Source: Streptosporangiales bacterium (GTDB taxonomy: Bacteria > Actinomycetota > Actinomycetes > Streptosporangiales > WHST01). From it: 64,000 nucleotides of DNA. Below, one piece after another: positions 35,902-56,643 of the stretch. The position numbers were made by a program, and so were the translations under genes. The stretch spans positions 62,001 to 126,000 of the forward strand of contig WHTA01000001.1 in assembly GCA_009379825.1 (NCBI GenBank), given 5' to 3'. The notes below the pieces were generated by a model. The model was not told where the DNA came from and did not search any database. It saw only the letters and a program-made list of their open reading frames with translations. Numbering within the stretch: position 1 is the first letter of the stretch; each line of letters starts with the position of its first letter.

Positions 35902-35937
35902 TTTCGCTGCTTTGCGTCAGTGTCTCGTTGGGATGAC

Positions 35938-36179: not shown

Positions 36180-36205
36180 CTGGCTCTCATACGCGACGTT
36201 CCCGA

Positions 36206-36581
36206 TCACCCGTCAGGTCTGGACCCACCTGACCAAGCGTCGCCTAGAACGCCTCTTGCGATGATCACTCTCTGGACCTCGCTGGTGCCTTCGTAGATGC
36301 GGAACAGCCGTGCGTCTCGGTAGAACCGCTCGACCGGGACGGATCGCATGTAGCCGAGCCCGCCGTGGATCTGGACAGCACGGTCGGCGACTCGGTCGAC
36401 CATCTCGGAGCAGAAGAGCTTCGTACACGACGGCGCGGTTCGTCGGTCGCTGCCTTCGTCGTACTCGCGGGCCGCCTGCAGGACCATCGCACGACCCGCA
36501 TAGAGCTCGGTCTGTGAGTCAGCCAGTTCGCACGAGTGTCCTGACGGCCTCGAGTACCGCGGCGAAGTCCGCGTCGTCCAT
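36206..36581 (-). pseudogene. Acyl-CoA dehydrogenase with large internal deletion
   Basis: ATG 36581 (preceded by GGGAG) encodes only MDDADFAAVLEAVRTLVR before the frame is lost near 36525. The rest, in another frame, is the C-terminal ~110 residues: ELADSQTELYAGRAMVLQAA, VQIHGGLGYMRSVPVERFYR and RLFRIYEGTSEVQRVI, the FAD/dimer helices and the catalytic-Glu motif IYEGT. About 250 residues are missing. Acyl-CoA dehydrogenases carry out the first oxidation of beta-oxidation. It would have been the last gene of the minus-strand run. Confidence 0.8.
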
Positions 36582-40160: not shown

Positions 40161-40240
40161 GGTCCCTCCCTTCGTCGCGTGCATGCCGACCAGACTCATA
40201 GTCTCGGAGACCGGCAGAGGTTGCGGTTGTGCCGATACGG

Positions 40241-40255
40241 AACATGCGTGCTGTT
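40241..40255. promoter_or_regulatory. Candidate activator site before the aldehyde dehydrogenase
   Basis: AACA (40241-40244) and TGTT (40252-40255) flank 7 bases and sit in the wider context GGAACA-N7-TGTTGC. The spacing AACA-N7-TGTT recurs before the adjoining divergent operons at 46347-46359, and the GGAACA half-site recurs at 43238. Assignment to the AcoR/MimR-like regulator is inference. Confidence 0.35.
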
Positions 40256-40268
40256 GCGTTCGTGCCGT

Positions 40269-42107
40269 TCATGCGTCGATGCGCAGTGCCACCATCTTGC
40301 GGTAGAGCGTTGTCCTGCCGATACCGAGTGCCTGGGCGGCTTCGGTTCGGTTTCCGCCGGATCGGTGCAGCGCCGAGATGATGGCCTGCCGTTCCGCGTC
40401 TTCCATCAGGGTCAGCTGACGACGGGACCGGGCGTGCTGCAGCCGTGTCGGGAGATCCGTGAGCCGCACCACCCCTCCCGGCATGCGGCAAGCAAGATCC
40501 TCGACGGTCCGGGAGAGCTCGGCGACATTCCCTGGCCACGACCACGCGATCAGCGCCTGCAGCGCCTCCGAGGAGAACGTCGTCTCCCGACGCCCGTCCG
40601 GCAGACCGGTCAGGATGTGGCCCACCAACTGCGGGATCTGTTGCTGTATCTCACGCAACGTCGGCAACCGCACAATGGTCGCCAGCTGGCCCACTAAGGA
40701 CTGGACGTGCTCTTCCGCCGCATCCAGATCGACCGTCATGACCAGCGCAGCACAGCGATCACCCGCAGTGGCGGTAGAACCTGCGGAATCCTGGCATTGG
40801 ACGAGCGCCTTGACCCTGTTAACCTCACGCGGCTCAAGATCCTGCACATGCCGCAGGATCACCGGCCTGTCCTCGGCGAGCGCCTCGCTCGCAGCAGAGA
40901 ACCAGCCGGACTCGTCGTCCCGACGATGACAGGAGACGTCGATGACAAGCGGCGACACGTGAGTGCGGAAGGTACGGTAAACCGCGGACGCAGCATGGAA
41001 CTTGCCCGTCCCTGGTCCGCCGTCGATCGCGACGCAGTCCCGACTGCAGATGGCGTCAATGAGTTGCGTCTGGACGTCCGGCGTCACACTCAGCGACGCC
41101 GCCGGCAGCCGGATCGCCGATCCGGTCAAGACCGTGCCGGCCCGGTGCGGCGGGTCGTGGTCGGCCGGGAGCAGGCGGACGCAGTATGCGGCATCGGATT
41201 CGTGGCTCCCGTCGACCCGCTCCACCACAGCCTCGCGCCATGCGGTGGGCAACGGAATCCCGATCCGTTGTGGTCCCCGCTCCAGCGGGGCGTCGGACAG
41301 GTGTGTCCACAACAAGGCGTGTGAGTCGCTGCTCACGTAGGTCAGCCCTGCGGTGTTGGCGAACATCACCCGTTCGTTGACGACGAGGACGGGGTCGTGC
41401 TCTCCCTGGTTGGCGACCAGGTATGCCTGGATGAGGGCACGCTCCTTGGCGCCGCGCATCGCGGTCAGGTTGCTCTCGATCTGACGACCGACATCGATCG
41501 CAACGGCGTACGTGAGCGGTGTCGCATCGACGGTGTAGCAGGCCAGGGAGAACGTTCCTACCAGTCGCCCTGTGAAGGGTTCGAAGACTGGAGTGCCGGC
41601 GCAGGTGATGGGTTCGAGCATGTCGTTGTAGTGCTCGCTGCCCCGCACGACGAGCGGACGGCGTTCCGCGATGACGGTGCCCAAGCCGTTCGTCCCGATC
41701 GAGGTCTCCGAGAAGTCGAACCCCTCCGCCGCGAAGGCGTTATCGAGCACGCTGCGCTGGCTGGGTTCACTCACTCGACGCATGATGATCTTGCCGGTGT
41801 GGTCACTGAGGAACATCGCGACCCGGACCTCGCCGATGTGGTCGCTGAGCCGGTCGAAGACCGTGGCCGCGGCTCTCCCCAGTTCCAGCTCGTGTCCGTC
41901 GATCTCCTGGTAGGGGATCTCGTCAGGTCTCGTCGGAACAGTGTCACCGAGGGAACGCCGCCAGCTGCGCTCGATGACGTCTCTCACGCCCACCGCTGAC
42001 GGTCGCACGGCGAGGAGGCCATTGCTCAGCAGGTCGTCCTTCGCCTGCCGGATGCGTTGCTGGTCGGCTGCGGGTCCGGTGGGCCACGGTTCGGCGCTGG
42101 TGTTCAT
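40269..42107 (-). CDS. AcoR/MimR-like Fis-type transcriptional activator
   Basis: 612 residues. The N-terminal sensor (about 60-230) is GAF-like with DFSETSIGTNGLGTVIAERR, the signature of AcoR-type regulators. A degenerate AAA domain follows: its Walker A reads GGPGTGKFHAAS, with Phe where Ser/Thr is needed, and no GAFTGA loop for sigma-54 contact is seen. The C-terminal Fis HTH is intact (RQAIISALHRSGGNRTEAAQ, ALGIGRTTLYRKMVAL). Related regulators control alcohol, ketone and propane oxidation genes in actinomycetes. Its ATG overlaps the alcohol dehydrogenase stop (ATGA), so the two are coupled. Confidence 0.85.
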   Translation of the reverse strand: MNTSAEPWPTGPAADQQRIRQAKDDLLSNGLLAVRPSAVGVRDVIERSWRRSLGDTVPTRPDEIPYQEIDGHELELGRAAATVFDRLSDHIGEVRVAMFLSDHTGKIIMRRVSEPSQRSVLDNAFAAEGFDFSETSIGTNGLGTVIAERRPLVVRGSEHYNDMLEPITCAGTPVFEPFTGRLVGTFSLACYTVDATPLTYAVAIDVGRQIESNLTAMRGAKERALIQAYLVANQGEHDPVLVVNERVMFANTAGLTYVSSDSHALLWTHLSDAPLERGPQRIGIPLPTAWREAVVERVDGSHESDAAYCVRLLPADHDPPHRAGTVLTGSAIRLPAASLSVTPDVQTQLIDAICSRDCVAIDGGPGTGKFHAASAVYRTFRTHVSPLVIDVSCHRRDDESGWFSAASEALAEDRPVILRHVQDLEPREVNRVKALVQCQDSAGSTATAGDRCAALVMTVDLDAAEEHVQSLVGQLATIVRLPTLREIQQQIPQLVGHILTGLPDGRRETTFSSEALQALIAWSWPGNVAELSRTVEDLACRMPGGVVRLTDLPTRLQHARSRRQLTLMEDAERQAIISALHRSGGNRTEAAQALGIGRTTLYRKMVALRIDA

Positions 42108-43162
42108 GACGAGAGCACGATCCGGCCGGGGACCCCTCCGTTGGCGACATCGGTCAAGGAACCGCTGACGCCGGCGAGGTCCAGCGTGCCAGGCACGACC
42201 GGTGAGCGTGGTAGCTCACTGGTCCGTGCGATCGTCACGAGTTGCTGCAGCTCGTCGAGTGTGCCGACGTAGCTGCCCTGGATGGTGATCATCTTCAACG
42301 CCATGAGGGCGGTCGGCACGGTGAGTTCGCCGCCGAACAGCCCGATCTGCACGAGCTTGCCGGCCTTGCCGAGCGCGTTGAAGGCCAGTTCGGCGGTCTG
42401 GGTGTTGTTCACGACGTCGATCACGGCACGGACCGGCCCGCCACATGCCTCGGACAGATCCTGCTGCGCCCGGTCTCCGTCCACCACCAGTGTTGTCGTC
42501 GCGCCTGCAGCCGACGCGAGCCGGAGGTTCGCCGCATTGATGTCGACGGCGCAGACGTTGCGGTGCCCACGCGCGACAAGAACACCGACCACGGTCAGCC
42601 CGACTCCTCCCGCGCCGATCACGACGACGGGCATGTCGGCCGGCAACGGCAGCACCTTGTTCACGGCGCTGAACGCGGTGACACCTGAGCAGGCCAGGGT
42701 GGCCGCCCAGGCAGGCTCCAGTCCGGAGATGTCGATGAGGAACTTCTCGTCGGGGACGGTCACGAGCTCGGCGTAGCCGCCGTGTCTGTTCACCCCGATC
42801 GTTCGGCCGGAGCCGCAGTGATTGTCCAAGCCGGCAGCGCAGAGGTGACACGAGCCGCAGCCGATCCACGGGTAGACCAGCCGCTCCTCCCCGACAGCGA
42901 CGTCGCGGACGTCGGGACCGATGGCTTCGACCCTGCCCACGATCTCGTGACCCATGACCAGCGGGTAGGCAATGCCACGGTCGGTGAGCCGGAGCCTGCC
43001 GCGCCGCCCGAGATCGTAGTACCCCTGCCGGAGATGGGTGTCGGTGTGGCAGACACCTACGTGCAGCACACGCAGGGTGACCTCGCCGGCCCGTGGTGGA
43101 CGGTCGGGCAGTTCGACCTGCCGAACCGTGGTGTCGTCTTCGGTTACGGCGTACGCGTACAC
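42104..43162 (-). CDS. Zinc-dependent alcohol dehydrogenase
   Basis: 352 residues from GTG 43162, chosen because GAGGAG is just upstream; longer starts would read into the ribosome site. Catalytic zinc ligands appear in HVGVCHTDTHLRQG and YPLVMGHEIVGRVEAIG. Structural zinc Cys residues are in CGSCHLCAAGLDNHC. The NAD site is VVVIGAGGVGLTVVGVL followed by VCAVDINAANLRLA (Asp, so NAD-preferring). It would oxidise the alcohol released by ester hydrolysis after Baeyer-Villiger oxidation. It is coupled to the activator gene downstream. Confidence 0.92.
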   Translation of the reverse strand: MYAYAVTEDDTTVRQVELPDRPPRAGEVTLRVLHVGVCHTDTHLRQGYYDLGRRGRLRLTDRGIAYPLVMGHEIVGRVEAIGPDVRDVAVGEERLVYPWIGCGSCHLCAAGLDNHCGSGRTIGVNRHGGYAELVTVPDEKFLIDISGLEPAWAATLACSGVTAFSAVNKVLPLPADMPVVVIGAGGVGLTVVGVLVARGHRNVCAVDINAANLRLASAAGATTTLVVDGDRAQQDLSEACGGPVRAVIDVVNNTQTAELAFNALGKAGKLVQIGLFGGELTVPTALMALKMITIQGSYVGTLDELQQLVTIARTSELPRSPVVPGTLDLAGVSGSLTDVANGGVPGRIVLSS

Positions 43163-43204
43163 AGCCACTCCTCGACTCTGAACAGAGGCTCTGAGCACAT
43201 GATC

Positions 43205-43585
43205 TCATCGATCCCGGCGACGATCATGTTCCAGAACGGAACAGGGGCGGGGCGGTCTCTGCTCCCTCGACGCCGCTGCGCCGCCAGGTGATCGCGAGGC
43301 TGCCGTCTGCGCGGCCGTCGGGAACGGCCCCAACGGCGCGAGGAACGCCCCGGCCACCAACGCGGCGGGACCCCATGCCGACGTGGTGCCGCTGGCACCC
43401 ACCATGCCCCAGCCGCTCTGGATCGAAGAGAACGAGGCGATCGCCATCACGAAGAATCCCAGTGACTGGCCGGCGACCAGGAACTCCTTCGACGACGTCA
43501 TCTTGGAGTTCGCCCAGAGTCCGATGCCGATCATTACCACCAAGTACGCGATGGCGACCCCGAGTATGACGGTCTGCGCATCCAT
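43205..43585 (-). pseudogene. N-terminal remnant of a sodium:solute symporter
   Basis: From ATG 43585 the first ~85 residues match SSS-family transporters: ILGVAIAYLVVMIGIGLWAN, SSKEFLVAGQSLGFFVMAIA and SFSSIQSGWGMVGASGTTSA. At about 43330 the homology ends and the frame becomes low-complexity. A full transporter has about 500 residues, so only the first two or three helices survive. It sits between the first monooxygenase and the alcohol dehydrogenase and probably once imported the substrate. Confidence 0.8.
43227..43243. promoter_or_regulatory. Perfect 6-5-6 dyad upstream of the alcohol dehydrogenase
   Basis: TGTTCC (43227-43232), AGAAC, GGAACA (43238-43243) is a perfect inverted repeat 65-81 bases upstream of the alcohol dehydrogenase start. 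It shares the GGAACA half-site with the region before the aldehyde dehydrogenase. It is the best candidate binding site for the coupled AcoR/MimR-like activator. Confidence 0.5.
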
Positions 43586-43667
43586 TGAAGAGTCCTTCCG
43601 TGGGGCGACGGGTTCAGGGCCAGCGGACGACCCAGGCCGCGTAACAGCTCGTCCTATGAGGCTCGTC

Positions 43668-45290
43668 CTACGAGACCTGTGCCGATGGAGCCATCTCGAA
43701 GCCCGCGTAGCCGTTGCTCGTCACCTCGGCAAGCTGCTGGCGATAGGCCTGCAGGCCAGCCATGTAGAACATGACGGTGTTGGGTTTGCCGGGGATGTTG
43801 GCGCCGAAGATCCAGGAGTCCGCTTTGGGGAACAGCGTCATGTTCGCGATCTCGCGGCAGGTGGTGGTCCATCCCTCCTCTGCCTGCGCGGTCGCCTCGA
43901 TCGATGTCACACCCGACCGCTCCGCGTTGTTGATCAGCTCGGAGATCCACTCACCCTGGGCCTCGATGCTGGGCGGCAGGTTGGTGAAGGGCCCGTTGGG
44001 TCCGAGGATCATGAACAGGTTCGGGAAGCCCGTCGTCGAAATGCCGAGATAGCTGGTCGGTCCGTCCTTCCAGTGCTCCTTGACGGACCTTCCCCCGCGT
44101 CCGCGGATGTCGATCCGGGTGTAGTTGCCGTCGACCGCGTCGAAGCCGGTCGCGAAGATGAGCACGTCGAGCTGGTGTTCCTGGCCGTCCTCGGTCCGCA
44201 CACCCTTCGGCGTGATCTCGGCGATCGGGTTGGCCTTGACATCCACCAGCGAGACGTTGTCGCGGTTGAACGTCTCGTAGTAGCCCGGGTCGCACAGTGG
44301 TCGCTTGGCGTAGAGGTCCGTCGGTGTCAGCTTGCGCGCGGTTTCCGGGTCCTCGACGATCTCCGCGATCTTGGCTCGGATGAACGACGCCGCGGCCTCG
44401 TTCGCCTCCGGGTCCGTGGCGATGTCGCTGAACGTACCGAACATGAAATGGAAACCGCCACCGCGTTCCCATGCCTTCTCAAAGACGCGTTGCCGTTCCT
44501 CCTCCGAAACGCTCATCGCCGCGACGGCGCTCTCCTTGAAGCCGAAGGCGACGACCGAGTTGCGCACGCCGTCCCAGACCTGGTCATAGTTCGCTTTGAC
44601 CGACGCAACATAGTCTTCGGTCACCGGACCGTTGGCGATCGGGACGCTGTACTGTGCCGAACGCTGGAAGACGGTGAGGTGCCCGACCTCCGGCGCGAGC
44701 GCGGTGATCACCTGACATCCGGTGGAACCCGTGCCGAGCACGCCGACTCGCTTGCCGGCAAGGTCGTGTTCCTCGGGCCAGGCGCCGGTGTGGTAGACCT
44801 CCCCCTCGAACGTGTCCCGCCCGGCGATGTCCGGGATGTTCGTCGCAGAGAGCAGCCCCAGGGCAGACACCAGGTACCGCGCGGTGAACGTCTCGCCGGT
44901 GTCGGTGCGGACCTCCCACGCATTCCTCGACTCGTCGAAGACGGCGGACGTGATGCCGGTGTTCAGCTGGATGTCACGGCCGAGGTCGAAACGCTCGACG
45001 ACGTGTTCCAGGTAGGCCAGGACCTGTGATTGCGTGAGGTAACGGGTGTCCCAGGTCCACTGCTGGAGCAGATCCTTGTCGAAGGAGTAGCAGTAGACGA
45101 AACCTTCGGTGTCCGACAATGCTCCTGGGTATCGGTTCCAGTGCCAGGTGCCCCCTACGCCGCTGGCCCTGTCGAACGCCCGGACGGTGAGGCCGAGCTC
45201 ATTGCGTAGCTTGTGGAGCATGTAGATGCCCCCGAATCCCGCGCCCACGACGATCGCGTCGACGTCCGTGCTCGTCTTGCTGGCAGCCAT
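43668..45290 (-). CDS. Baeyer-Villiger monooxygenase, cyclohexanone-monooxygenase type
   Basis: 540 residues. FAD motif AIVVGAGFGGIYMLHKL near residue 12; the BVMO fingerprint FxGxxxHxxxW is exact in FEGEVYHTGAWPEEH; the NADPH motif is VGVLGTGSTGCQV; and the ATG motif FATGFDAVDGNY is present. Size and motifs fit type I BVMOs of the cyclic/linear ketone group. It inserts oxygen next to a ketone, using NADPH and O2, to make an ester or lactone. It is the second gene of the minus-strand run after a hydrolase able to open the product. Confidence 0.95.
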   Translation of the reverse strand: MAASKTSTDVDAIVVGAGFGGIYMLHKLRNELGLTVRAFDRASGVGGTWHWNRYPGALSDTEGFVYCYSFDKDLLQQWTWDTRYLTQSQVLAYLEHVVERFDLGRDIQLNTGITSAVFDESRNAWEVRTDTGETFTARYLVSALGLLSATNIPDIAGRDTFEGEVYHTGAWPEEHDLAGKRVGVLGTGSTGCQVITALAPEVGHLTVFQRSAQYSVPIANGPVTEDYVASVKANYDQVWDGVRNSVVAFGFKESAVAAMSVSEEERQRVFEKAWERGGGFHFMFGTFSDIATDPEANEAAASFIRAKIAEIVEDPETARKLTPTDLYAKRPLCDPGYYETFNRDNVSLVDVKANPIAEITPKGVRTEDGQEHQLDVLIFATGFDAVDGNYTRIDIRGRGGRSVKEHWKDGPTSYLGISTTGFPNLFMILGPNGPFTNLPPSIEAQGEWISELINNAERSGVTSIEATAQAEEGWTTTCREIANMTLFPKADSWIFGANIPGKPNTVMFYMAGLQAYRQQLAEVTSNGYAGFEMAPSAQVS

Positions 45291-45335
45291 CAGTGATGCT
45301 CCTTTGCTCGGTAGGTGTCGATAGGCCTGACACGG

Positions 45336-46262
45336 TCAGCCGTGGTACCAGACGGCGATCCGTCGAATCTCCTCGTCCGCTTCCGGTGCGCGGCCAGCGA
45401 GGAAGGGGAAGACGTGCTGCATACCCTCGACGACGGACAACGTCACGTCGACGCTCGCAGCGTCGGCGCTCGCGGCGAGCCGGGTGGCGTTGTCGACGAG
45501 TGACTCGACCGAACCAGCGTTGACGTAGAGCCTCGGGAAACCGGTGAAGTCGGCATACAAGGGATTCGCCAACGGCGTCGTGGGAGCGACCGTGCCACCA
45601 AGCACGCCGGCGATCATGCCCTCGAGCAAACCGACCGTGATCAACGCATCGGTGGCGTCGTTGGTGACCAACGTCTTCCCCTTGTTCTCCATGTCCAGCC
45701 ACGGCGAGAACGCGATCACCCGCCCGGGCAGTGGCCGGCCGTCAGCACGCAGTGCCAACGGGATCGCGACGGCCAGGTTCCCGCCGGCTGAGTCACCGAT
45801 GGTCGCGATGTCGGCCGGCGCGATCCCTCGGTCGGTGAGCGCTAGGAACACCGCGACACCGTCTTCGACCTGCGCCGGATGGACGTGTTCCGGTGCTCGC
45901 CGGTAATCGAGCACGAATGCTGTGACGCCAATCGCTCGCGCGACGTGCGCGGCGAGCTTGCGGTGACTGGCCGCCGACCCTACGGCGAAGCCGCCGCCGT
46001 GAGTGTAGAGCAGGACCTTGGCGCGGTCGGCACCGCTGGGCAGGGCCCAGATGCCAGGTACGCCACCGATCGTCTCCTCCTTGTAGGTGACGTTCTCGGG
46101 TTCGCGGGTGGGCTGGTGCCACTCGTCGAAGATGCTCCGGAGCAACCGTATGTTCAGGTCCGGTGTCGACGCGAGGATCTCGGTCCAGTCCGCGTAGAGG
46201 CTCCTGAGCGTATCTGCGTCAGTTGAGGTCTTCGACTGCTGAGGTTCGGAAGAGACCGCCAT
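45336..46262 (-). CDS. HSL-type alpha/beta hydrolase (esterase/lactonase)
   Basis: 308 residues from ATG 46262, placed by AAAGGAG. The oxyanion motif THGGGFAVGSAASHRKLAAH and the nucleophile motif IGDSAGGNLAVAIPLALRA identify the hormone-sensitive-lipase family. The His of the triad lies in VEGMQHVFPFLAG, and the acid residue is probably the Asp/Glu in NAGSVESLVDNA. It is immediately upstream of the BVMO on the same strand (45-base gap). Hydrolysis of the ester or lactone made by the BVMO is the obvious role. Confidence 0.9.
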   Translation of the reverse strand: MAVSSEPQQSKTSTDADTLRSLYADWTEILASTPDLNIRLLRSIFDEWHQPTREPENVTYKEETIGGVPGIWALPSGADRAKVLLYTHGGGFAVGSAASHRKLAAHVARAIGVTAFVLDYRRAPEHVHPAQVEDGVAVFLALTDRGIAPADIATIGDSAGGNLAVAIPLALRADGRPLPGRVIAFSPWLDMENKGKTLVTNDATDALITVGLLEGMIAGVLGGTVAPTTPLANPLYADFTGFPRLYVNAGSVESLVDNATRLAASADAASVDVTLSVVEGMQHVFPFLAGRAPEADEEIRRIAVWYHG

Positions 46263-46345
46263 CTCGATACTCCTTTGTCCGTAACGGCGGGACCGTGTGA
46301 TGCAGTGTGCGGCCGCAGCCGCCACCGCGGGGTGTACCGATCTGA

Positions 46346-46360
46346 AACACCACACGTGTT
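46346..46360. promoter_or_regulatory. Dyad in the divergent BVMO promoter region
   Basis: AACAC-CACAC-GTGTT at 46346-46360 is a perfect inverted repeat. It contains AACA-N7-TGTT, the arrangement seen at 40241-40255. It lies 84 bases upstream of the hydrolase start and 200 bases upstream of the second BVMO start. It is a candidate site for the AcoR/MimR-like activator. Confidence 0.4.
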
Positions 46361-46528
46361 GGCATGCCGAGGAGCCCGCGGCGACTCCAGCCTGGAGACC
46401 GTGACGCCAAGGGCACGGTCGACCTGGCAGCGCGTCAGATCGACCAGCCATCGCTGCCTGTAGCCGAAGTGCGCGAACTGAGCGCTCTACCCAACCAGCT
46501 CGCTTGCCACCATCCTCATCTTGATTCT

Positions 46529-46543
46529 AATCTACATTAGATT
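46529..46543. promoter_or_regulatory. TetR-type operator before the second BVMO
   Basis: AATCT-ACATT-AGATT at 46529-46543 is a perfect 5-5-5 inverted repeat, 17 bases upstream of the GTG at 46560. The same half-sites with the same 5-base spacing occur next to the tetR gene at 51768-51782. Position over the start region suits a repressor. Confidence 0.7.
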
Positions 46544-46559
46544 CAGGAATGAGGTTACC

Positions 46560-48488
46560 GTGCCGAGAGCCGCGGAACGCATTACCTCCCTCGACGAGGC
46601 GACTCTGCGTGACACCCTCGTCGAGGCCAACGTGCCCACACTGCTGATGGTGCTGTTCCAGCTGAGCGGCAACCGTAGCTGGTTGCGCGAGCCATATCTG
46701 CCCACCCGCATTCCCGGCATGAGCGACCACGACGACGGTGGTCTGTCCCCGGACCTCCAGCAACGTGTGCGGAACGCGGCAGCCACCGCCGTGCTCGCCT
46801 GGGACCAGGGCCGACCGGTCACCGTCCCGGCACCGCGCGGCGACCTGCTGACGACCATGCTCTCGGTGTGCATGGGTGAGCAGGTCGCACCGGACTTCGA
46901 GCCGATGATGGCAGAGGAGCTGGGTTTCGCTCCTGCGCGGTCACGGGTCGTCGACACCGAGAGAGCGGCGGGGTTCCCGGTCGTCGTGATCGGTGCCGGT
47001 GTCTCCGGGCTCGCCGCGACGGTCAAGCTCCGTGAGCTGGGCGTGCCTGTCACTGTGCTGGAGAAGAACGCGACTGTTGGCGGGACGTGGCTGGAGAACC
47101 GTTACCCAGGCGCCGGCGTCGACACACCGAGCCACCTCTACTCGTTCTCGTACTTTCCGCGCCGGTGGACTGCGCACTTCGCGAAACGCGACGAGCTCGC
47201 GCGCTATCTCGAGGAGTTCGCCGATCACTTCGAGCTGTGGCCCCACATCAGGCTCCGCCACGAGGTGACAGCCATCGAATGGGACGACACTGCGCAGCGC
47301 TGGACGGTGACGGTCGTCGGCCCTGACGGCGGTACGGACCGATTCACCGCGCGCGCCGTCGTGACCGCGGTCGGCCAGCTGAACCGCCCCGCCGTGCCCG
47401 ACATCGAAGGAGCAGCCGACTTCACCGGCCCGGTGTTTCACTCCGCGCGTTGGCCAGACGGCCTCGACGTCACCGGGAAGCGCGTCGCCGTCGTCGGCAC
47501 GGGCGCGAGCGCGATGCAGATCGTCCCCGCCGTCGCCGACCGGGTCGCGAGCCTCACCGTCTACCAGCGCTCCCCACAGTGGGTCGCGCCGAACGCCAAC
47601 TACTTCGAACCGGTCAGCCCGCGTAAGGACTGGCTGATCACTCACGTGCCGTACTACCGCGCCTGGTACCGCGTGCGACTGGCGTGGACGTTCAACGACA
47701 AGACACACGCATCGCTGCAGATCGACCCCGACTGGGGTCTCGGACAGCACGCCGTCAACGCGGTCAACGACGGCCACCGCACGTACTTCACCAGATACCT
47801 GATGCGCGAGCTCGACGGCCGCCCCGACCTGCAGGCAAAGACACTGCCCGACTACCCACCGTTCGGCAAACGGATGCTGCTCGACAACGGCTGGTTCAAG
47901 GCGTTGCGCCGGCCGAACGTCGAACTCGTCACAGCACCCGTCACGCGGTTCACCCGTACCGGCGTGGAGACGTCCGACGGCCGCAAACGCCCCGCCGACG
48001 TGGTCGTGTTCGCGACCGGCTTCGAGGCACGCAAGCTGCTCGGCGAGCTGGGCATCCGCGGGCGTTCCGGACGAACCCTCAGGGGCGTCTGGGGCGACGA
48101 CGACGCGTACGCGTACCTCGGCATCACGGTACCGGACTTCCCCAACCTCTTCTTGACCTACGGCCCACACACCAACCTCGGGCACGGCGGCAGCTACATC
48201 ACGGTGGCGGAGTGCCAGGTGAGGTACATCGTCGACCTGGTCGCGCAGATGATCGACACAGACATCACGTCCGTCGAGCCACGCGCGGACGTGACAGAGC
48301 GGTACAATCGCGACCTCGACGACGCACACGCGCGGATGATCTGGACCCATCCGGGCATGGACACCTGGTACCGGAACCGCAACGGGCGCGTCGTCACCAA
48401 CTCACCCTGGCGGATCGTCGACTACTGGGCGCTCACGCGCCGCGCCGACCTCGACGACTTCGTCGTCCGGACCAGGCTGGAAGGCTGA
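46560..48488 (+). CDS. HAPMO-like Baeyer-Villiger monooxygenase
   Basis: 642 residues from GTG 46560, just after GGAATGAGG and the operator; upstream codons in this frame overlap the operator. An N-terminal ~135-residue extension, as in 4-hydroxyacetophenone monooxygenase, precedes the FAD motif VVVIGAGVSGLAATVKLREL. The fingerprint FxGxxxHxxxW is exact in FTGPVFHSARWPDG. The NADPH motif VAVVGTGASAMQIVP and VVFATGFEARKLLGELGI complete the enzyme. It oxidises an aryl or alkyl ketone to an ester. A 3-base gap separates it from an acyl-CoA synthetase, a likely co-expressed partner. Confidence 0.93.
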   Translation: MPRAAERITSLDEATLRDTLVEANVPTLLMVLFQLSGNRSWLREPYLPTRIPGMSDHDDGGLSPDLQQRVRNAAATAVLAWDQGRPVTVPAPRGDLLTTMLSVCMGEQVAPDFEPMMAEELGFAPARSRVVDTERAAGFPVVVIGAGVSGLAATVKLRELGVPVTVLEKNATVGGTWLENRYPGAGVDTPSHLYSFSYFPRRWTAHFAKRDELARYLEEFADHFELWPHIRLRHEVTAIEWDDTAQRWTVTVVGPDGGTDRFTARAVVTAVGQLNRPAVPDIEGAADFTGPVFHSARWPDGLDVTGKRVAVVGTGASAMQIVPAVADRVASLTVYQRSPQWVAPNANYFEPVSPRKDWLITHVPYYRAWYRVRLAWTFNDKTHASLQIDPDWGLGQHAVNAVNDGHRTYFTRYLMRELDGRPDLQAKTLPDYPPFGKRMLLDNGWFKALRRPNVELVTAPVTRFTRTGVETSDGRKRPADVVVFATGFEARKLLGELGIRGRSGRTLRGVWGDDDAYAYLGITVPDFPNLFLTYGPHTNLGHGGSYITVAECQVRYIVDLVAQMIDTDITSVEPRADVTERYNRDLDDAHARMIWTHPGMDTWYRNRNGRVVTNSPWRIVDYWALTRRADLDDFVVRTRLEG

Positions 48489-48491
48489 GCG

Positions 48492-50057
48492 ATGTTCACC
48501 AGCAGCGTGCTGCGCAGCGTGGCGCAGCGGGCGAGGGCAGGCTACCGCGACCGTCCCGCGGTGTCGTTGGAAGACGGGCCCACGTGGACGTACGGCGAGC
48601 TCGTCGCCAACGTCAACCGGTACGCCAACGGCCTGCTCGACCTCGGCGTGACCGCGGGCGACCGTGTCGGCTTGCTGATGCGCAACTCGCTCGAGTACTG
48701 GGCCGCCTACCTCGCCACCACGAGGATCGGGGCGATCGCCGTACGGCTGAACTGGCGACTGGCGCCGGCCGAGCTCGACTACGCACTGCGCGACTCAGGC
48801 GCGACGGTACTGTGCCTCGACGACGCCTTCACCGGCGAGCTGCGCCAGATGCTCGGCGTGCTGCCCGACCTGACGCCGGTGGCCTTCACAGAAGGCGCCG
48901 ACCCGTTCGCGACGCAGCCGGCTACCGAACCACCGGTTGATGACCCGGCGGCGACCGACCCGTGCATGATCATGTACACGTCGGGCACCACGGGACGCCC
49001 CAAGGGCGCGTTGTGGTCGCACGACACGACGCTGTGGCAATGCGCCATCCAGGTCATGCAATGGAAGTACGACAAGAATCTCGTCTGCCTGTCCACCACG
49101 CCGATGTACCACGTGAGCGCGGTCGAGGACTGGGCGCTGCCGGCGTTGATGCTCGGCGGCCACGCGGTGATGATGCGCTCGACCGGCCTGCGCCCTGAAC
49201 GGATCGCCGCGATGGTGCGACGACACGGTGTCACGGACACTTTTCTCGTCCCTTCCGTCATCTACGACCTGCTCACGTCGGACGCGCCCGGCGCGCTCGA
49301 CCTGCCCAGCCTGCGCCGGGTCGTGACGGGTGGGTCGCCGATGGCGGCGTGGGCGGTGACCAAGATGCGGCAGGCGCTCCCCGACGTCTCGCTGGAGCAA
49401 GCGTACGGACTCACCGAGGGTGGCCCGATCTCCACGGTCATGGACCCCGCCGACCTCGACACCCATCCCGCCAGCGTCGGCACACCGATGCCGCTGGTCG
49501 AAGTACGCATCGCGCGCCTCGACGACCTCGCGGCGGACGCCGCAGCAGACCAGGAGGGCGAGATCTGGGTCCGCGGCCCAGCGACGTGCGGCGTCTACTA
49601 CAACAAGCCCGAGGCAACGGCGGCGACGTTCGTCGACGGCTGGTGCAGAACAGGCGACCTCGGCCGGCTCACCGCCGACGGTCACCTCTACGTCGTCGGC
49701 CGTGTCAAGGACATGATCATCAGCGGCGGCGAGAACATCTACCCCGCCCAGGTCGAGGCGGTGCTCCTCGATCACCCGGCGGTGAAGGACGCAGCCGTCA
49801 TCGGCATCCCGGACGCCAGGTGGGGTGAACGCCCATGCGCGGTCATCGTCACCAGCCCCGGCATGACGGTCACCGCAGACGAGCTGGTGGCGCGCTGCCG
49901 CGGCCAGCTCGCTGGCTACGAATGCCCGCGACACGTGGTGCTCGTCGACGAGCTCCCCCGCAACGCCTCGGGCAAGGTACTCAAGCGCGTTCTGCGCGAC
50001 CAGTACGCATCGCTGGGGACGCGAGGTCGTGGGATGGATCCAAATACAGCCTCGTGA
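48492..50057 (+). CDS. AMP-forming acyl-CoA synthetase/ligase
   Basis: 521 residues. ATP/AMP motifs are clear: MYTSGTTGRPKGALWSHDT, YGLTEGGPISTV, GWCRTGDLGRL, GRVKDMIISGGENIYPAQVE and the C-terminal Lys in LPRNASGKVLKR. It activates a carboxylic acid to its CoA thioester through an acyl-adenylate. Being 3 bases after the HAPMO-like BVMO, it would activate the acid set free from that enzyme's ester. Its last 77 bases overlap a decayed maoC-like frame on the other strand. Confidence 0.93.
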   Translation: MFTSSVLRSVAQRARAGYRDRPAVSLEDGPTWTYGELVANVNRYANGLLDLGVTAGDRVGLLMRNSLEYWAAYLATTRIGAIAVRLNWRLAPAELDYALRDSGATVLCLDDAFTGELRQMLGVLPDLTPVAFTEGADPFATQPATEPPVDDPAATDPCMIMYTSGTTGRPKGALWSHDTTLWQCAIQVMQWKYDKNLVCLSTTPMYHVSAVEDWALPALMLGGHAVMMRSTGLRPERIAAMVRRHGVTDTFLVPSVIYDLLTSDAPGALDLPSLRRVVTGGSPMAAWAVTKMRQALPDVSLEQAYGLTEGGPISTVMDPADLDTHPASVGTPMPLVEVRIARLDDLAADAAADQEGEIWVRGPATCGVYYNKPEATAATFVDGWCRTGDLGRLTADGHLYVVGRVKDMIISGGENIYPAQVEAVLLDHPAVKDAAVIGIPDARWGERPCAVIVTSPGMTVTADELVARCRGQLAGYECPRHVVLVDELPRNASGKVLKRVLRDQYASLGTRGRGMDPNTAS

Positions 50058-50472
50058 GGTGGTCGGCGATGCACACCGGCGTCGCCGAACGCTCCGGCAG
50101 CATCGTATAGCGCACCTTCACCTGCACGCCGCCGTCGATCTCGACGGCGTCCAGCAGCCGCGCCGTCGCTCTTACCCGAGTATGGGCGGGTAGCGGCGCT
50201 GGGAAGCGCACCCGGTCCAGGCCGTCGTTCACCACCATGCGTACACCACCGAGGGGCAGCACCTGCGGCAGGAACTTCGCGATCAGCGCTAACAACAAGA
50301 AGCCCGGCACCGTCGTGGTGCCGGGCTAGGGGTCGTCGTCGGTCGCGGCAGTGAACTGGGCAATGCGGTCCTCGCTGACCGACACCCAAGATGCGGTGCC
50401 CATCTCGCCGCCGACGACCGCCCGTAGCTGGTCGACGTCGGTAAGCGCGTCAGGTCGCCGCGCCGACCGCAC
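49981..50472 (-). pseudogene. MaoC-like hydratase gene, deleted and stopped
   Basis: One frame from GTG 50472 encodes DVDQLRAVVGGEMGTASWVS, VSEDRIAQFTAATDDD, then TAG at 50326-50328. After that come LIAKFLPQVLPLGGVRMVVN, DGLDRVRFPAPLPAHTRVRA and a tail, the second half of a MaoC/hot-dog hydratase. The ~25 residues that normally hold the catalytic Asp-His segment are absent, and a perfect hairpin lies exactly there. The 3' end runs into the acyl-CoA synthetase gene. Hydratases of this kind act in beta-oxidation. Confidence 0.7.
50301..50327 (-). terminator. Perfect 11-bp hairpin with T-rich tail (minus strand)
   Basis: AGCCCGGCACC (50301-50311) and GGTGCCGGGCT (50317-50327) are exact complements around GTCGT. 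Read on the minus strand the stem is followed by TCTTGTTGTT, as in an intrinsic terminator. It would end transcription of the SCP2-like and hydrolase genes. It also sits at the lesion in the maoC-like pseudogene. Confidence 0.75.
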
Positions 50473-51283
50473 GAGAGTTCACACGCTGGACGAAGTCGAC
50501 GATGACGTCAGCGATACGGGCTGGGTCCTCGAACATCGGGTAGTGGCCGATACCGTCGAGGACCAGCTTCTCACCGTCAGGCAGCAGCTTCACCGTCTCG
50601 TCGACGAGCTCCTCGGGGAGCCAGAAGTCGTCGGCACCCTTGACCACGAGCACCGGGCAGCGCGTGCCCGGCAGGACGTCACGGATGTCGTGGTTGGCCC
50701 AGCCGCACAGGTCGCCCACTGCACTGACCTGGGCATTGCGGTGCATCCACCGGAGCTCCTCGACCTTCTCCGCCGGGCACGCGCGGTTCAGCGATGCGCC
50801 GGACACGCGTTCCATCAGGTCCTGCCAGCCCGGCGTCCAGGACGGGTACATGTACTCGCTCGGGTCCGGGAAGGTCGGCGTGCGTGCCGCGCCCTCCATC
50901 GGGATCGCCGCCAGGTAGTCCTCGCCGTGGTGCGCGGCGATGTCGAGGGTGATGTCGCCGCCGATCGACGACCCCGTGATCACGGGACGCCCCCCCGAGC
51001 ACACCAGCTGGGTGAACCGGTGCACGAACTCCGCGTGCGGGTGGATCCTCGTCGTGACCTCCCAGCCCGCCGGGTAGGTGCGTCCACGGCCGGGCAGGTC
51101 CAGCGCGATCGCACGGTAGCCACGGTCGGCGAGCTCGGCCAGCAGGTACCGGTATTCCAGGCTGCTCGCGCCGGCCGTATGCACGCAGACGATGGCGGGC
51201 CCGTCACCGAGCTCATCGTAGAACGTCAGCGTGCCGTCGACGTCGATGTAGTGACCGGTGATGTCGCAGATCCCGTAGCTCAT
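50450..51283 (-). CDS. Alpha/beta hydrolase (meta-cleavage/enol-lactonase-like fold)
   Basis: 277 residues from ATG 51283, which shares its A with the upstream stop (TGATG). Motifs: GDGPAIVCVHTAGASSLEYR (oxyanion region), nucleophile in VITGSSIGGDITLDIAAHH, acid in VVKGADDFWLPEE, and His in LDGIGHYPMFEDP, so the Ser-Asp-His triad is complete. It is a second hydrolase in the insert, coupled to the SCP2-like gene. It may open esters or lactones, or cleave a ring product; the substrate cannot be told. Confidence 0.88.
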   Translation of the reverse strand: MSYGICDITGHYIDVDGTLTFYDELGDGPAIVCVHTAGASSLEYRYLLAELADRGYRAIALDLPGRGRTYPAGWEVTTRIHPHAEFVHRFTQLVCSGGRPVITGSSIGGDITLDIAAHHGEDYLAAIPMEGAARTPTFPDPSEYMYPSWTPGWQDLMERVSGASLNRACPAEKVEELRWMHRNAQVSAVGDLCGWANHDIRDVLPGTRCPVLVVKGADDFWLPEELVDETVKLLPDGEKLVLDGIGHYPMFEDPARIADVIVDFVQRVNSRAVGAAT

Positions 51284-51717
51284 CACGAACTCCTCGTTGC
51301 CGCTGTGCGCGCGTACGTCTCAGCGAGCTGGTACACCGCCTCGGTGAGCCGGTTCGCCTCCATCACGTTCCCCTCGACCCTCAGGTCGGACGTCATCACG
51401 CCGAGTGTCGCCAGCTCGGGGTCATCGGCGAAGTACCGTTGTCCCGGGGTCACCAGGTCGGCGAACAGGCGGCGTCCCGCCACCAGCTCCGCCCACGCCT
51501 CGTCCGGCCCGGATACCTTGAACGTGTACCCGAGCGGCGGCATGAACGGCAGGTGGTCGATCACCTTGCCGCGGTAGACCTTCAGCCAGCACTGCCCGCC
51601 CGACGACTCCAGCAGCACACTGCCGTCGAACCAGCGCGTCTCGCGTTCGAACGCCTCGTTCTCGTTGAGCGAGGCAACCAGCGCCTCCGCTCCTGCTGTC
51701 GTGGTGAATGTCGCCAC
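51283..51717 (-). CDS. SCP2 sterol-binding-like protein
   Basis: 144 residues from GTG 51717, preceded by AAGGGAGGGAAAG; a longer start (51750) would overlap the ribosome site. QCWLKVYRGKVIDHLPFMPP and LGYTFKVSGPDEAWAELVAG, then TSDLRVEGNVMEANRLTEAV form the SCP2-like alpha/beta fold with a hydrophobic pocket. Such proteins bind lipids or acyl-CoA, or serve as small accessory proteins in degradation operons. It is coupled to the hydrolase and faces the tetR gene across the operator at 51766-51784. Confidence 0.7.
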   Translation of the reverse strand: MATFTTTAGAEALVASLNENEAFERETRWFDGSVLLESSGGQCWLKVYRGKVIDHLPFMPPLGYTFKVSGPDEAWAELVAGRRLFADLVTPGQRYFADDPELATLGVMTSDLRVEGNVMEANRLTEAVYQLAETYARTAATRSS

Positions 51718-51765
51718 GAGCTTTCCCTCCCTTGGGTGCTGTGGGACCAAGACTCGACCGCGAGC

Positions 51766-51784
51766 TTAATCTAATACAGATTAA
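51766..51784. promoter_or_regulatory. TetR operator beside its own gene (7-5-7 dyad)
   Basis: TTAATCT-AATAC-AGATTAA at 51766-51784 is a perfect inverted repeat in the divergent gap between the SCP2-like gene and tetR. Its core AATCT-N5-AGATT is the same as at 46529-46543. It is the likely autoregulatory operator of the TetR protein. Confidence 0.75.
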
Positions 51785-51834
51785 ATAGCAACGACTCGCC
51801 GGAATGCGACACCTTGCCGTCTAGGATCGCGAGC

Positions 51835-52494
51835 ATGGCCAAGAAGGGTGACCAGGGCGCCACCAAATCCGGGTACACGCGCGAACGAATCCTGGACGCC
51901 ACTGCGTCCGTGCTGTGCCAGAAGGGATACGCGGGCACGCGCCTGTCCGACGTCGCGGACGTCGCCGAGCTGCAGGCCCCCGCGCTGTACTACTACTTCG
52001 ACTCCCGCGACGAGCTGATCGAAGAGGTCGTCAGGCTCGGCCAGCAACGCGCCCAGCAACACGTCCGCGAGGCACTCGACGCCCTCCCCGCCGACACCCC
52101 TCCCCTCGACCGCCTCTGTGCCGCCGTCGAAGCGCACCTGCGTGTGGTGCTCGAACTGTCGGACTACACGATGGCGGCGATCCGCAACCTCGGCCAGCTC
52201 CCCGAGGGGATGCGGCGTCGGATGCTCGCCGAGCAGCGGCAGTACGGAAAGCTGTGGGAGGAGCTCGTCGCCGACGTCCACGCCGCTGGTATTGCCAATC
52301 CCGACGTCGACCTGCTCTCCGCGCGGATGCTCATCGTCGGCGCGCTGAACTGGGCACCGGAGTGGTGGAACCCTCGGCGCACCTCCGTAGACGACGTCGT
52401 CCACACGGCACGCACGCTGGTACGCCACGGGCTACGTGCCGACAAGCGATCGGCATCGAAGACCCGGACCCGCGGGGACAGGAGGACCACGTGA
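51835..52494 (+). CDS. TetR-family repressor of the catabolic insert
   Basis: 219 residues from ATG 51835. HTH region: TRERILDATASVLCQKGYAG, TRLSDVADVAELQAPALYYY and FDSRDELIEEVV. The C-terminal domain has WAPEWWNPRRTSVDDVVHTA, a pattern shared with KstR2/FadR-type TetR repressors that bind acyl-CoA ligands. The operator core shared with the BVMO2 promoter makes it the probable repressor of the monooxygenase-synthetase operon and of the SCP2-hydrolase pair. The inducer is likely a pathway acyl-CoA; that is inference. Confidence 0.88.
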   Translation: MAKKGDQGATKSGYTRERILDATASVLCQKGYAGTRLSDVADVAELQAPALYYYFDSRDELIEEVVRLGQQRAQQHVREALDALPADTPPLDRLCAAVEAHLRVVLELSDYTMAAIRNLGQLPEGMRRRMLAEQRQYGKLWEELVADVHAAGIANPDVDLLSARMLIVGALNWAPEWWNPRRTSVDDVVHTARTLVRHGLRADKRSASKTRTRGDRRTT

Positions 52495-52989
52495 GGCGAG
52501 GTCCACACCCGTTCCCGCGTGAGTCTGTCCGCACCGAAGGGGCGGGCAGGTCCAGATCGGCATGAGACCCAGGCCAGCCCACACCTCAGGATCTCCGCCG
52601 GCGCTGAGCGTTGCCGACGGCAATGCGGGTCCAGTGTCAGCGTTGGCCTGGGGTGCCGGGGAGGTCCACGCCAGCTTGGACGCCGGCAAATGCCCTATCG
52701 ACATGCCGCTGCCAGGCGTCGACGCTGGGTCGTCCTCGAGCATCCACTCGTCGGTTCCGATGCGGCTGGCGGCCGCACAGACCGCGACGGCAAGTACCGG
52801 CATTCGATCGGCGTCGGCGTCCAGGCCTGCCCGGCGGGCGAGGCACCGGGCCAACGCTGTCTCCCTGCCTCCGATGCGCCTGAGGTTCTCTCCGCGGAAG
52901 GTCGTGTCGGCGTTGACAATGCGCCGGACGCGGCGCACCTTCGTGGCCATCTCCTCATGTCGCTGCCGACTCTCCGAAGCGGCAGCCAC
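52495..52989. other. Degenerate stretch after tetR, no gene recognised
   Basis: About 500 bases with long frames on both strands but no motif I can place. Since the following sequence is the C-terminal half of an amidohydrolase gene, this could be its decayed N-terminal half. I could not find the HxH metal motif in any plus-strand frame. Confidence 0.35.
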
Positions 52990-53529
52990 GTCATCGAGCG
53001 CGCGCACGCGATCGGTACCGTCGGGATCTCCAACGCAGTGCAGGTGGGAGTGCACAGCGTCGAACATGGCAAACGGTGTCACGCGTGAGCTGGCGACCGG
53101 ATCGCCGAACTGGGCACCCTTCTTGTACCGACTCTCACCGTGCTGCCTGAGGCCGCCGCAACCGGCGGTGATCGGGGACCACGCTCATCGGAAGGCAGCG
53201 CGCTGGCAGGAGGAAACGCGGGTGAACCTGCCTGCGGCGATCGAGGCCGGTGTGCGCGTCGCGATGGGGACGGACGCCGGCCTCGCAGCCAGCACGGGCA
53301 GAACCTTCGCGAGCTCGCGCACCCCGTCGAGTTCGGCATGTCGCCGATGGCGACCATCGTGGCGGGCATACGCACTACCAGTGAGGTCTGTGGCTCGAGC
53401 GAGGTCCCAGGGACCCGATGGCCGATATCGGGCCTGCCCACCGAACCGGCGAATATCCCAGTGGTCGTCCAGGACGGCCGTATTGTCAAGAACACCGCTG
53501 ACGACTCGAAGGGTGGCGGACATGAGTAG
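52990..53529 (+). pseudogene. Imidazolonepropionase-like amidohydrolase, frameshifted
   Basis: Pieces in three frames follow the order of COG1228-type amidohydrolases. RAHAIGTVGISNAVQVGVHS with VEHG (metal His region) lies at about 53000-53070. HRKAARWQEETRVNLPAAIE, AGVRVAMGTDAGLA (the metal Asp) lies at 53190-53290. NLRELAHPVEFGMSPMATIV and VVVQDGRIVKNT lie in a third frame to TGA 53529. At least two frameshifts and an internal deletion are needed. The stop overlaps the next start. Confidence 0.6.
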
Positions 53530-54690: not shown

Positions 54691-55117
54691 CAGCACGACA
54701 CACGATCACCGGTCGCCGGCGGGTCGCCGCGGGTAGCAGCGAACCAGTCGGAATGCCGCACGATGGGGCCGCAGCTCGGCAGACCGGTAACCGGGGAGGT
54801 GTGAGCGATCACGACATTCCGTGCGACACGAGGTCGGGCGGACCTCCCATTGCGCCGGCGCCCTTTGCTTCCTGCAAGTCCGCGGAGCCACGTCGGCCTG
54901 CGCAGTCATGGACCGCTGTCATCAAGGAGCGGGCACATCATCCGCTGCCTCCGTCGACGGGTTCGAACACGCCTTGTAACTCTCGTCACGCACGTACGCA
55001 GGAACGCGACAGCGAAACAAATGTCATACCGGACGGCGGCCTAGGTCGGACGCTCGGTAGTGAGCAATGACGAACACGACATGGCCTGGGTAGGACACAG
55101 TGACTGCGGCCGAAATG
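54691..55117. other. Right end of the insert, no gene recognised
   Basis: 427 bases without a supportable gene, attachment-site repeat or transposase fragment. The last bases before the dnaE2 junction (GCGGCCGAAAT) resemble, as reverse complement, the first bases of the left end (TTTCGCTGC), a weak sign of terminal repeats. Confidence 0.4.
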
Positions 55118-56643
55118 GGGCTCGGCATGCTCAGCGCGTTGCACGACGCCTTCGACCTGCTGGCCGTCTACCACCAGGTCGCGTTCGAGCTGGAGAACGT
55201 GCCCGCCGAGGACCCGAAGGTGTACGAGATGCTGTGCGACGCCGACACGATCGGCGTGTTCCAGGTGGAGTCGAGGGCGCAGATGTCGGCGCTGCCGCGG
55301 CTGCGGCCGAAGGAGTTCTACGACCTGGTGGTGCAGGTCTCGCTCATCCGGCCTGGACCGATCCAGGGCGGTTCCGTACACCCGTACCTGCGCCGCAGGC
55401 ACGGCCGGGAGGAGAGCACCGCGCCGCATCCGCTGATGGAGCGGGCGTTGAAGCGTACCTACGGGGTGCCGCTGTTCCAGGAGCAGATGATGCAGATCGC
55501 CGTCGACTGTGCCGGGTTCACGGCCGCGGAGGCCGACCGGCTCAGGCAGGCGATGGGCTCCAAGCGGTCCAGGAGCGGATCGAGGCGCTGCGTGCGCGGC
55601 TGCTCGCCGGCATGCAGGCGAACGACGTCGACGAGCAGACGGCCGAGGACATCTACCACAAGCTGCACGGCTTCGCCGGGTTCGGTTTCCCCGAGTCGCA
55701 CGCGATGAGCTTCGCGCACCTGGTGTACGTCAGCGCCTACCTGAAGCGCTACTACCCCGCGGTGTTCACCGCTGCGTTGCTGCGCAACCAGCCGATGGGG
55801 TTCTACGGGCCGCACACCCTGGTCGGTGACGCGCGCAGGCACGGCGTCGTGGTCCGCGGTGTGGACGTCAACGCAAGCGCGGCCGAGGTGACGCTGGAGA
55901 AGGAGTACCACCCGCCGGAGTGCGCGCACCCGCACCAGCCGGTCGAGTCGCAGCCGGTGATCAGGATGGGGTTGGCCAGCGTCCGCAACCTGGGCAAGGA
56001 GCAGGCGAAGGTGGTCGCCGCCGGCCGGCCGTACGCGGACATGGAGGACCTGGCCAGGCGCACGCAGCTGTCCGTACCTGCGCTCGAGGCGCTCGCCGTA
56101 GCGGGTGCGTTCGGCTGTTTCGGGCTCACCCGCAGGGAGGCGCTGTGGGCGGCCGGCGGGCTTGCGGGTGTCGGGCCCGGGCAGCTCGCCGGCAGCACTC
56201 CCGGCCTGCCCGCGCCCGAGCTGCCTGCCATGACCCCGATCGAGGAGACCTTCGCCGACCTGTGGGCGACGGGCGCTTCGGCGACCAGCCACCCGATCCA
56301 GCACCTGCGCGCCGAACTGGCGGCACGGCGGGTCGTGCCGGCGGAGGCGTTGCCGCGGTTGGCCGACCGCGCACAGGTGCGCGTCGCCGGCGTCGTCACC
56401 CACCGGCAGCGACCGCCGACCGCGGGCGGCGTGGTGTTCCTGAGCCTGGAGGACGAGACCGGCCTGGTCAACGTGGTCTGCCCGCCCGGCACCTGGCAAC
56501 GGCACCGCAAGGTCGCCCTGGACGCGGCGGCCCTGATCGTCCACGGCCGCCTGGAACGCGGCGAAGGCACGACGAACCTGATAGCCCACCGCGTCGAGCG
56601 CCTACCCGTAGCCACCATCACCCACAGCCGCGACTTCCGCTGA
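55118..56643 (+). pseudogene. dnaE2: dnaE2 3' portion, with an additional frameshift
   Basis: The frame resumes with GLGMLSALHDAFDLLAVYHQ and runs through DADTIGVFQVESRAQMSALP, VSLIRPGPIQGGSVHPYLRR and QAMGSKRS, the fingers domain. Near 55570 one base is missing (TCCAGGAG for TCC-CAG-GAG). The rest (ERIEALRARLLAGMQANDVD, HGFAGFGFPESHAMSFAHLV, HhH region, OB-fold RPPTAGGVVFLSLEDETGLV, end HSRDFR) is in the next frame to TGA 56643. Joined to 34139-35901 it would give a DnaE2 of about 1095 residues. It lacks its own start signal. Confidence 0.92.

Follow-up and report, generated by a model that had tools for sequence, protein, structure and literature searches.

A putative operator shared by a TetR-family regulator, a Baeyer-Villiger monooxygenase-ligase pair and a divergent gene pair in a Streptosporangiales bacterium

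The DNA analysed here is a stretch of 64,000 nucleotides from a Streptosporangiales bacterium (GCA_009379825.1), hereafter called the window, which corresponds to bases 62001-126000 of contig C1 (WHTA01000001.1) in a draft genome of 6,154,701 bases and 169 contigs. Two copies of a short inverted repeat lie in it, one just upstream of a gene for a Baeyer-Villiger monooxygenase (BVMO) and the other in the gap between a tetR gene and a divergently transcribed gene pair, and both are considered as putative operators of the adjacent TetR-family regulator. The locus contains the following features.

46526-46541, no strand: putative operator 1 in the TCTAAT-N4-ATTAGA register (TCTAATCTACATTAGA), 0 mismatches; 18 bp separate its end from the BVMO start codon
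46529-46543, no strand: AATCT-N5-AGATT dyad, exact match, overlapping operator 1
46560-48488, plus strand: BVMO, 642 aa, GTG start, with matches to solved BVMOs
48492-50057, plus strand: AMP-binding acyl-coenzyme A (CoA) ligase, 521 aa, Pfam AMP-binding, 3 bp behind the BVMO
50450-51283, minus strand: alpha/beta hydrolase, 277 aa, assigned by Pfam, its ATG overlapping the stop codon of the 144-aa gene (ATGA)
51283-51717, minus strand: 144-aa protein of no recognised family, GTG start at 51717
51766-51784, no strand: longer form of the second AATCT-N5-AGATT dyad (7-base arms, TTAATCT-N5-AGATTAA), overlapping operator 2
51770-51785, no strand: putative operator 2 (TCTAATACAGATTAAA), 1 mismatch, within the 117 bp that separate tetR from the divergent 144-aa gene
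51835-52494, plus strand: TetR-family regulator, 219 aa, ATG start, TetR_N and TetR_C_24 domains, proposed binder of both operators

The sequence-only reading had described two perfect dyads with the same half-sites and 5-base spacing, and exact AATCT-N5-AGATT matches are indeed present at 46529-46543 (AATCTACATTAGATT) and 51768-51782 (AATCTAATACAGATT), the second with the 7-base arms claimed for it. They were also said to be improbable by chance, which the shuffles bear out: the window contains two exact matches, and each of 100 dinucleotide shuffles contained none. The genome scan that had been suggested returned these same two places and no others across all 6,154,701 bases, with 0 for a reversed control pattern, and the many unrelated matches that would have told against a regulon were not found. 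Both dyads overlap a second, 16-bp, even-centred dyad, TCTAAT-N4-ATTAGA, of which the window half-sites are TCTAAT and TTTAAT. Allowing up to 2 mismatches, none of 100 dinucleotide shuffles of the window held two matches to this dyad, and operators 1 and 2 were the only matches in the genome. At 3 mismatches there were 33 more places, compared with 68 for the reversed control, and these were taken as background; the 19-mer TTAATCT-N5-AGATTAA likewise had two further 3-mismatch matches in the genome, C5:12181 and C125:8053.

The loci of TetR orthologues elsewhere show that the even-centred dyad is conserved. A search at an E value of 1e-40 found orthologues in 14 of 345 genomes of the order and 16 of 394 genomes sampled from the class, the genome studied here being counted in both, and 26 larger regions were fetched around orthologues; among named genomes 17 orthologues were returned, and 12 loci (49-59% identity) were used. 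Analysis was carried out on 38 orthologue loci, leaving out weaker matches (L019-L023) and double-TetR loci (L054-L061). With up to 2 mismatches, TCTAAT-N4-ATTAGA was found at 50 sites in 26 of the 38 loci, and the reversed control at none. By our own simple gene caller, 39 of the 50 sites were at least half intergenic, against 10.9% of bases that are intergenic, and 39 of the 50 had a called start no more than 120 bp downstream. With the two window sites included, there were 52 sites compared with 0.67 expected. When all perfect 6-base dyads with spacings of 0-12 were ranked in the 38 loci without the window, TCTAAT-N4-ATTAGA came second of 601, occurring in six loci where 0.0002 were expected. 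De novo motif discovery by expectation maximisation in the 380 bp preceding each of 40 TetR orthologues yielded GC-rich signals only, which are probably coding sequence because many of the orthologues sit inside operons.

A position weight matrix (PWM) was built from 46 distinct sites outside the window. These were found with a pattern chosen after the window had been seen, and the dyad ranking is in this respect the less biased result. Over the 64 kb, operator 1 scored 34.9 and operator 2 scored 33.9, ranking first and second, with the next non-overlapping place at 12.2 and the largest score in 20 window shuffles at 8.9. Plasmids of Rhodococcus opacus PD630 and R. qingshengii, which lie outside the PWM, scored 29.1 and 34.4 in the divergent gap between a ferredoxin gene and tetR, while the top sites of a Pseudonocardia plasmid (L149) reached only 26.2 and less. 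The 20 proteins examined beside sites in other loci belong mostly to CoA pathways, and their products include CoA transferase, enoyl-CoA hydratase, thiolase, acyl-CoA dehydrogenase, CoA ligase and MaoC, along with short-chain dehydrogenase/reductase (SDR), HpcH/HpaI lyase, aldehyde dehydrogenase and Rieske oxygenase.

The distribution of the site follows that of the regulator. Twelve genomes scanned at up to 1 mismatch gave 16 sites, in seven of the nine TetR-bearing genomes, and every one of the 16 was on the same contig as a tetR orthologue and within about 23 kb of it; no site at this threshold was found in three genomes with a BVMO homologue and without a TetR orthologue. The reversed control matched at five places in the 12 genomes, so single 1-mismatch matches alone are not significant, but their position is. 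Across the 345 genomes of the order, the exact dyad was present in 5 of 14 TetR-bearing genomes and in 3 of 331 others (Fisher p 2.7e-6). BVMO homologues were found at 42 places, 30 of which had loci that could be tested; of the 12 without loci, the two in the genome studied here were covered by its own scan. A site just upstream of the BVMO homologue was present in two of the 30 loci, the window and one in genome G211, both with an adjacent TetR orthologue, and these two sites have 0 mismatches each, their first bases lying 34 and 35 bp ahead of the point where the protein match begins. The remaining 28 loci had nothing nearer than 4 mismatches upstream. The sequence-only reading took the TetR for the natural binder linking the BVMO-ligase genes, the 144-aa gene-hydrolase pair and tetR itself; the uniqueness of the dyads in the genome and the way in which sites track TetR orthologues both argue for such a link.

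The G211 locus (L072), which comes from another family, is the best parallel to the window. An exact operator lies 16 bp before the start of the BVMO orthologue (55-56% identical), which is followed by a convergent TetR and an SDR and then by a thioesterase, a CoA ligase, MaoC, an acyl-CoA dehydrogenase, a thiolase, a further SDR, a relative of the 144-aa protein and a hydrolase (67% identical). PWM sites precede four genes there, with scores of 37.0 for the BVMO, 28.5 for the ligase, 26.0 for the thioesterase and a weaker 21.2 for the 144-aa gene, the largest shuffle score being 10.5. An Amycolatopsis metagenome-assembled genome (L010) adds a third BVMO case, in which the enzyme is 47% identical, a 2-mismatch site lies 70 bp before it and there is again a TetR association.

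An ATG-started open reading frame (ORF) was found at 51835-52494, as had been claimed for the regulator, and its product matches both TetR_N (E 1.4e-12) and TetR_C_24 (E 1.3e-18) above the curated cut-offs. It has the N-terminal helix-turn-helix (HTH) and helical C-terminal ligand domain of the TetR family, and the putative site at 51770-51785, between tetR and the divergent gene pair, would provide the palindromic operator that members of the family have in their own promoter region. Mean identity to the window TetR was 74% in the HTH region, compared with 55% for the rest. The AlphaFold2 model, with a predicted local distance difference test score (pLDDT) of 87.6, has among its closest folds those of AibR with isovaleryl-CoA (Z 20.1, the top solved match), KstR2 (Z 19.2) and FadR (Z about 17.5-18.3). 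However, DarR, whose ligand is a nucleotide, matched at Z 19.3, on a par with the acyl-CoA-binding regulators, and a match in fold is therefore not decisive for the ligand. By sequence, the nearest PDB entries include Mce3R (9b7y, E 2.2e-16) and BkaR (4g12, E 1.9e-10). Identity with KstR (NCBIfam NF033703) was ruled out, the score of 30.0 bits falling short of the cut-off of 280.

The window TetR resembles several known regulators and differs from each of them in some respects. The acyl-CoA-responsive KstR2, AibR and FadR are among the closest in fold to the predicted model but have only 16-20% sequence identity, and their operators differ from the one in the window. EthR is a TetR that adjoins and represses a BVMO gene, ethA. 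The likeness lies in a TetR beside a BVMO, and the gene set differs from that of the window; the EthR motif is described as larger, more complex and present in multiple copies (PMC4482099). BkaR, or Fad35R (Rv2506 in Mycobacterium tuberculosis and MSMEG_4718 in M. smegmatis), recognises a 16-bp palindrome, GTTA-N-T-N4-A-N-TAAC, is autoregulated and controls adjacent CoA-metabolism genes (PMC3920632). It resembles the window TetR in sequence and in having a 16-bp palindrome with an N4 centre. Unlike the BkaR half-site GTTA-N-T, those of the window begin with T and not G, with 3 of the 5 fixed half-site letters in common; in addition, BkaR has two motifs in its own promoter and branched-chain keto-acid genes, not a BVMO, as targets. 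The window TetR would act in a similar way, but the assignment to BkaR was dropped because the half-site letters differ. Mce3R of M. tuberculosis, although among the closest PDB sequences, carries two TetR units in a single chain, binds asymmetric 25-bp sites and autoregulates a local lipid or sterol regulon (PMC11667970). The window TetR is a single unit of 219 aa with a palindromic site, and membership was ruled out on these two grounds. Autoregulated TetRs in charge of small local catabolic regulons are well known in the literature (PMC4482099). The operator sequence itself was not found in print by a search of the open-access literature for the exact motif string.

The GTG start of the BVMO at 46560 is preceded by a ribosome-binding stretch (AGGAATGAGG), and an alternative, longer ORF from TTG 46521 would span the operator. 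Pfam assigns the protein to FMO-like/Pyr_redox, and its closest solved match is cyclohexanone monooxygenase (5m0z, E 3.8e-69). It has the FAD/NADPH domains of type I BVMOs and contains FTGPVFHSARWP, read from the DNA, the type I signature motif being FxGxxxHxxxW. Solved BVMOs align from about residue 136, leaving an N-terminal extension of ~135 aa before the FAD domain. 4-Hydroxyacetophenone monooxygenase (HAPMO), which acts on aryl ketones, has an N-terminal extension of about 130 aa; the window enzyme is HAPMO-like in size. The 144-aa protein had been called SCP2-like, a label that found no support: there was no SCP2 match in Pfam up to an E value of 1, where the single match was at chance level (E 0.012, below its cut-off), nor in NCBIfam, and comparison of its profile with an annotated SCP2 protein gave a probability of 0.1%. 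The SCP2 identity was dropped accordingly, and the structural model (pLDDT 44) is too low in confidence to settle the fold. Among the 345 genomes of the order, the protein was found at an E value of 1e-10 in the window genome and G211 only, its sole relative being the one in L072 (62-63% identical).

The TCTAAT-N4-ATTAGA dyads are thus, on sequence evidence, very probably the operators of the adjacent TetR. We further consider it probable that the TetR represses through both of them, and possible that an acyl-CoA releases it in a feed-forward manner. Without inducer, a TetR dimer would occupy operator 1, in the transcription or translation start region of the BVMO, and another would occupy operator 2 in the divergent promoter gap, so that the BVMO-ligase genes, the 144-aa gene-hydrolase pair and tetR itself would be repressed. 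When a ketone is present, basal BVMO would convert it to an ester or lactone, the hydrolase would open this to an acid, and the ligase would turn the acid into an acyl-CoA; this compound, or a derivative, would then bind the C-terminal domain of the TetR, releasing it from the DNA and completing a feed-forward switch. An acyl-CoA-released repressor is proposed because the nearest relatives include acyl-CoA binders and the genes adjacent to sites elsewhere belong mostly to CoA pathways. The acyl-CoA is nevertheless the weakest step and a tentative choice, drawn by analogy with AibR, KstR2, BkaR and FadR, which are among the nearest in fold or sequence. The predicted regulon is local, with two operators and three transcription units, given that the genome holds only operators 1 and 2 at up to 2 mismatches.

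Several observations weigh against this interpretation. The exact site is missing from nine of the 14 TetR-bearing genomes, and 12 of the 38 orthologue loci lack TCTAAT-N4-ATTAGA at up to 2 mismatches. The ranking of 6-base dyads was headed not by this dyad but by TTTGAA-N6-TTCAAA, in 8 of the 38 loci; rewritten as TTGAAT-N4-ATTCAA it has the same geometry, and some orthologue loci bear it in place of TCTAAT-N4-ATTAGA. Binding specificity may therefore differ between branches of the TetR. Exact dyads also occur in three genomes without a TetR orthologue (L152, L153, L154 and L155), where no TetR relative was found within about 1.5 kb of them, and other proteins can therefore use the dyad. In L072, the site before the 144-aa gene is weak: the even register gave no match there at up to 2 mismatches, and AATCT-N5-AGATT fits with 1 mismatch. 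A sigma-70-like promoter was sought at both operator sites and none was found.

The choice of register is the closest of these questions, as the true operator could be the odd-centred AATCT-N5-AGATT, with TCTAAT-N4-ATTAGA a mere by-product of overlapping letters. The odd dyad is perfect at both window sites, has 7-base arms at one of them and is the better fit to the weak L072 site just described. Among 49 TAATCT anchors in the 38 loci, however, the even centre was best (mean paired 0.630, 10 anchors with at least 7 of 8 pairs) and the odd centre second best (0.536, with 4). In a list of 1908 5-base dyads, CTAAT-N4-ATTAG ranked 2 and AATCT-N5-AGATT 49, and BkaR too has the even 16-bp geometry (PMC3920632). 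An odd-centred operator is consequently unlikely: the dyads noticed in the sequence-only reading are real, while as the conserved operator their motif yields to TCTAAT-N4-ATTAGA, which is better kept in relatives.

Binding by some other regulator of the genome in place of the adjacent TetR, whether a different TetR or a member of another HTH family, is very unlikely. Actinobacteria encode many TetRs, and one of the exact dyads in genomes without the orthologue (L152) immediately precedes an ORF whose beginning looks, by eye, like that of a LacI-type regulator, but across genomes the sites track this TetR and are present in its own promoter gap both here and in the Rhodococcus plasmids. The TetR might also be an activator, or control only tetR and the divergent pair, with the BVMO site inherited but idle. 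No promoter elements were found that would define a geometry of repression, which allows for this, yet 18 bp lie between operator 1 and the BVMO start codon (16 bp in L072), a placement suited to blocking, and TetR regulators are often repressors (PMC4482099); we regard it as highly improbable. Perfect dyads could form hairpins, and one weak terminator-like element was found at 51789-51801. The alternative that the dyads arose by chance, or act in RNA as stem-loops or terminators with no protein binding them, is contradicted by the shuffles, the genome scan, the conservation beside orthologues and an Rfam search of 45000-53000 that gave no match, and it carries almost no probability. Repression by the adjacent TetR through the even-centred dyads is accordingly the explanation we retain.

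The wider TetR group shows further variety. TTGAAT-N4-ATTCAA was found at L016:5535, L086:12517, L085:12919, L062:17727, L063:18297, L064:18392 and L065:11669, and L062-L065 hold both dyad types, TCTAAT and TTGAAT, perhaps for two paralogous TetRs. Two related tetR genes lie a few kb apart in L009, L011, L013, L014, L015, L018 and L075, among others. The frames of 435-460 aa in L054-L061, with two adjacent matches in some genomes, resemble Mce3R-type double TetRs. Genome G177, which has no TetR orthologue, contains two exact dyads 76 bp apart.

To the left of the regulon, a second ketone cluster on the minus strand (38793-46262) encodes an aldehyde dehydrogenase, a GAF/Fis-type regulator, a zinc alcohol dehydrogenase, a second BVMO and an HSL-type esterase. 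The genome scan at up to 2 mismatches found no TetR site belonging to this cluster. Its esterase, second BVMO and two dehydrogenase genes, on the left of the island, probably lie outside the regulon, and the cluster may answer to its GAF/Fis regulator. The gene for the error-prone polymerase DnaE2 is split in this genome, with parts at 34139-36232 and 55116-56643; 34289-35900 and 55116-56637 are contiguous in dnaE2 of G343, from the same genus (about 79% DNA identity), and GGGCT is present at both island junctions (35897-35901 and 55118-55122). An apparent insertion of ~19.2 kb in dnaE2 thus carries the whole island including the regulon, with misassembly an alternative in a draft assembly. 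No TetR orthologue was found in either of the two same-genus genomes. Inside the left junction, 35930-36180 in another frame encodes a stretch containing RPPTAGGVCFLNLEDETGMANIICPP that looks, by eye, like the DnaE2 C-terminus; the island might have brought a foreign dnaE2 3' end along.

The TetR could belong to an undescribed, widely scattered actinobacterial clade that regulates CoA-linked catabolic islands through a shared 16-bp operator code, its half-site switched between TCTAAT and TTGAAT and predicting the substrate and inducing acyl-CoA of each island; we regard this as a plausible but uncertain extension. Such islands would comprise BVMO ketone cleavage, Rieske oxygenase and acyl-CoA dehydrogenase/thiolase clusters, in many cases accompanied by paired tetR genes, and would extend to plasmids. 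The analysis supplies a candidate operator for an uncharacterised TetR clade, one that annotators can use to find co-regulated genes across many actinobacterial catabolic islands. If an acyl-CoA is indeed the inducer, the TetR would be a candidate biosensor for the breakdown product of the ketone. For the organism itself, the BVMO, CoA ligase, hydrolase and orphan protein are tied into one probable ketone-degradation unit, and the gene set looks like a small, locally controlled ketone breakdown of a familiar type, ordinary in kind and useful in detail.

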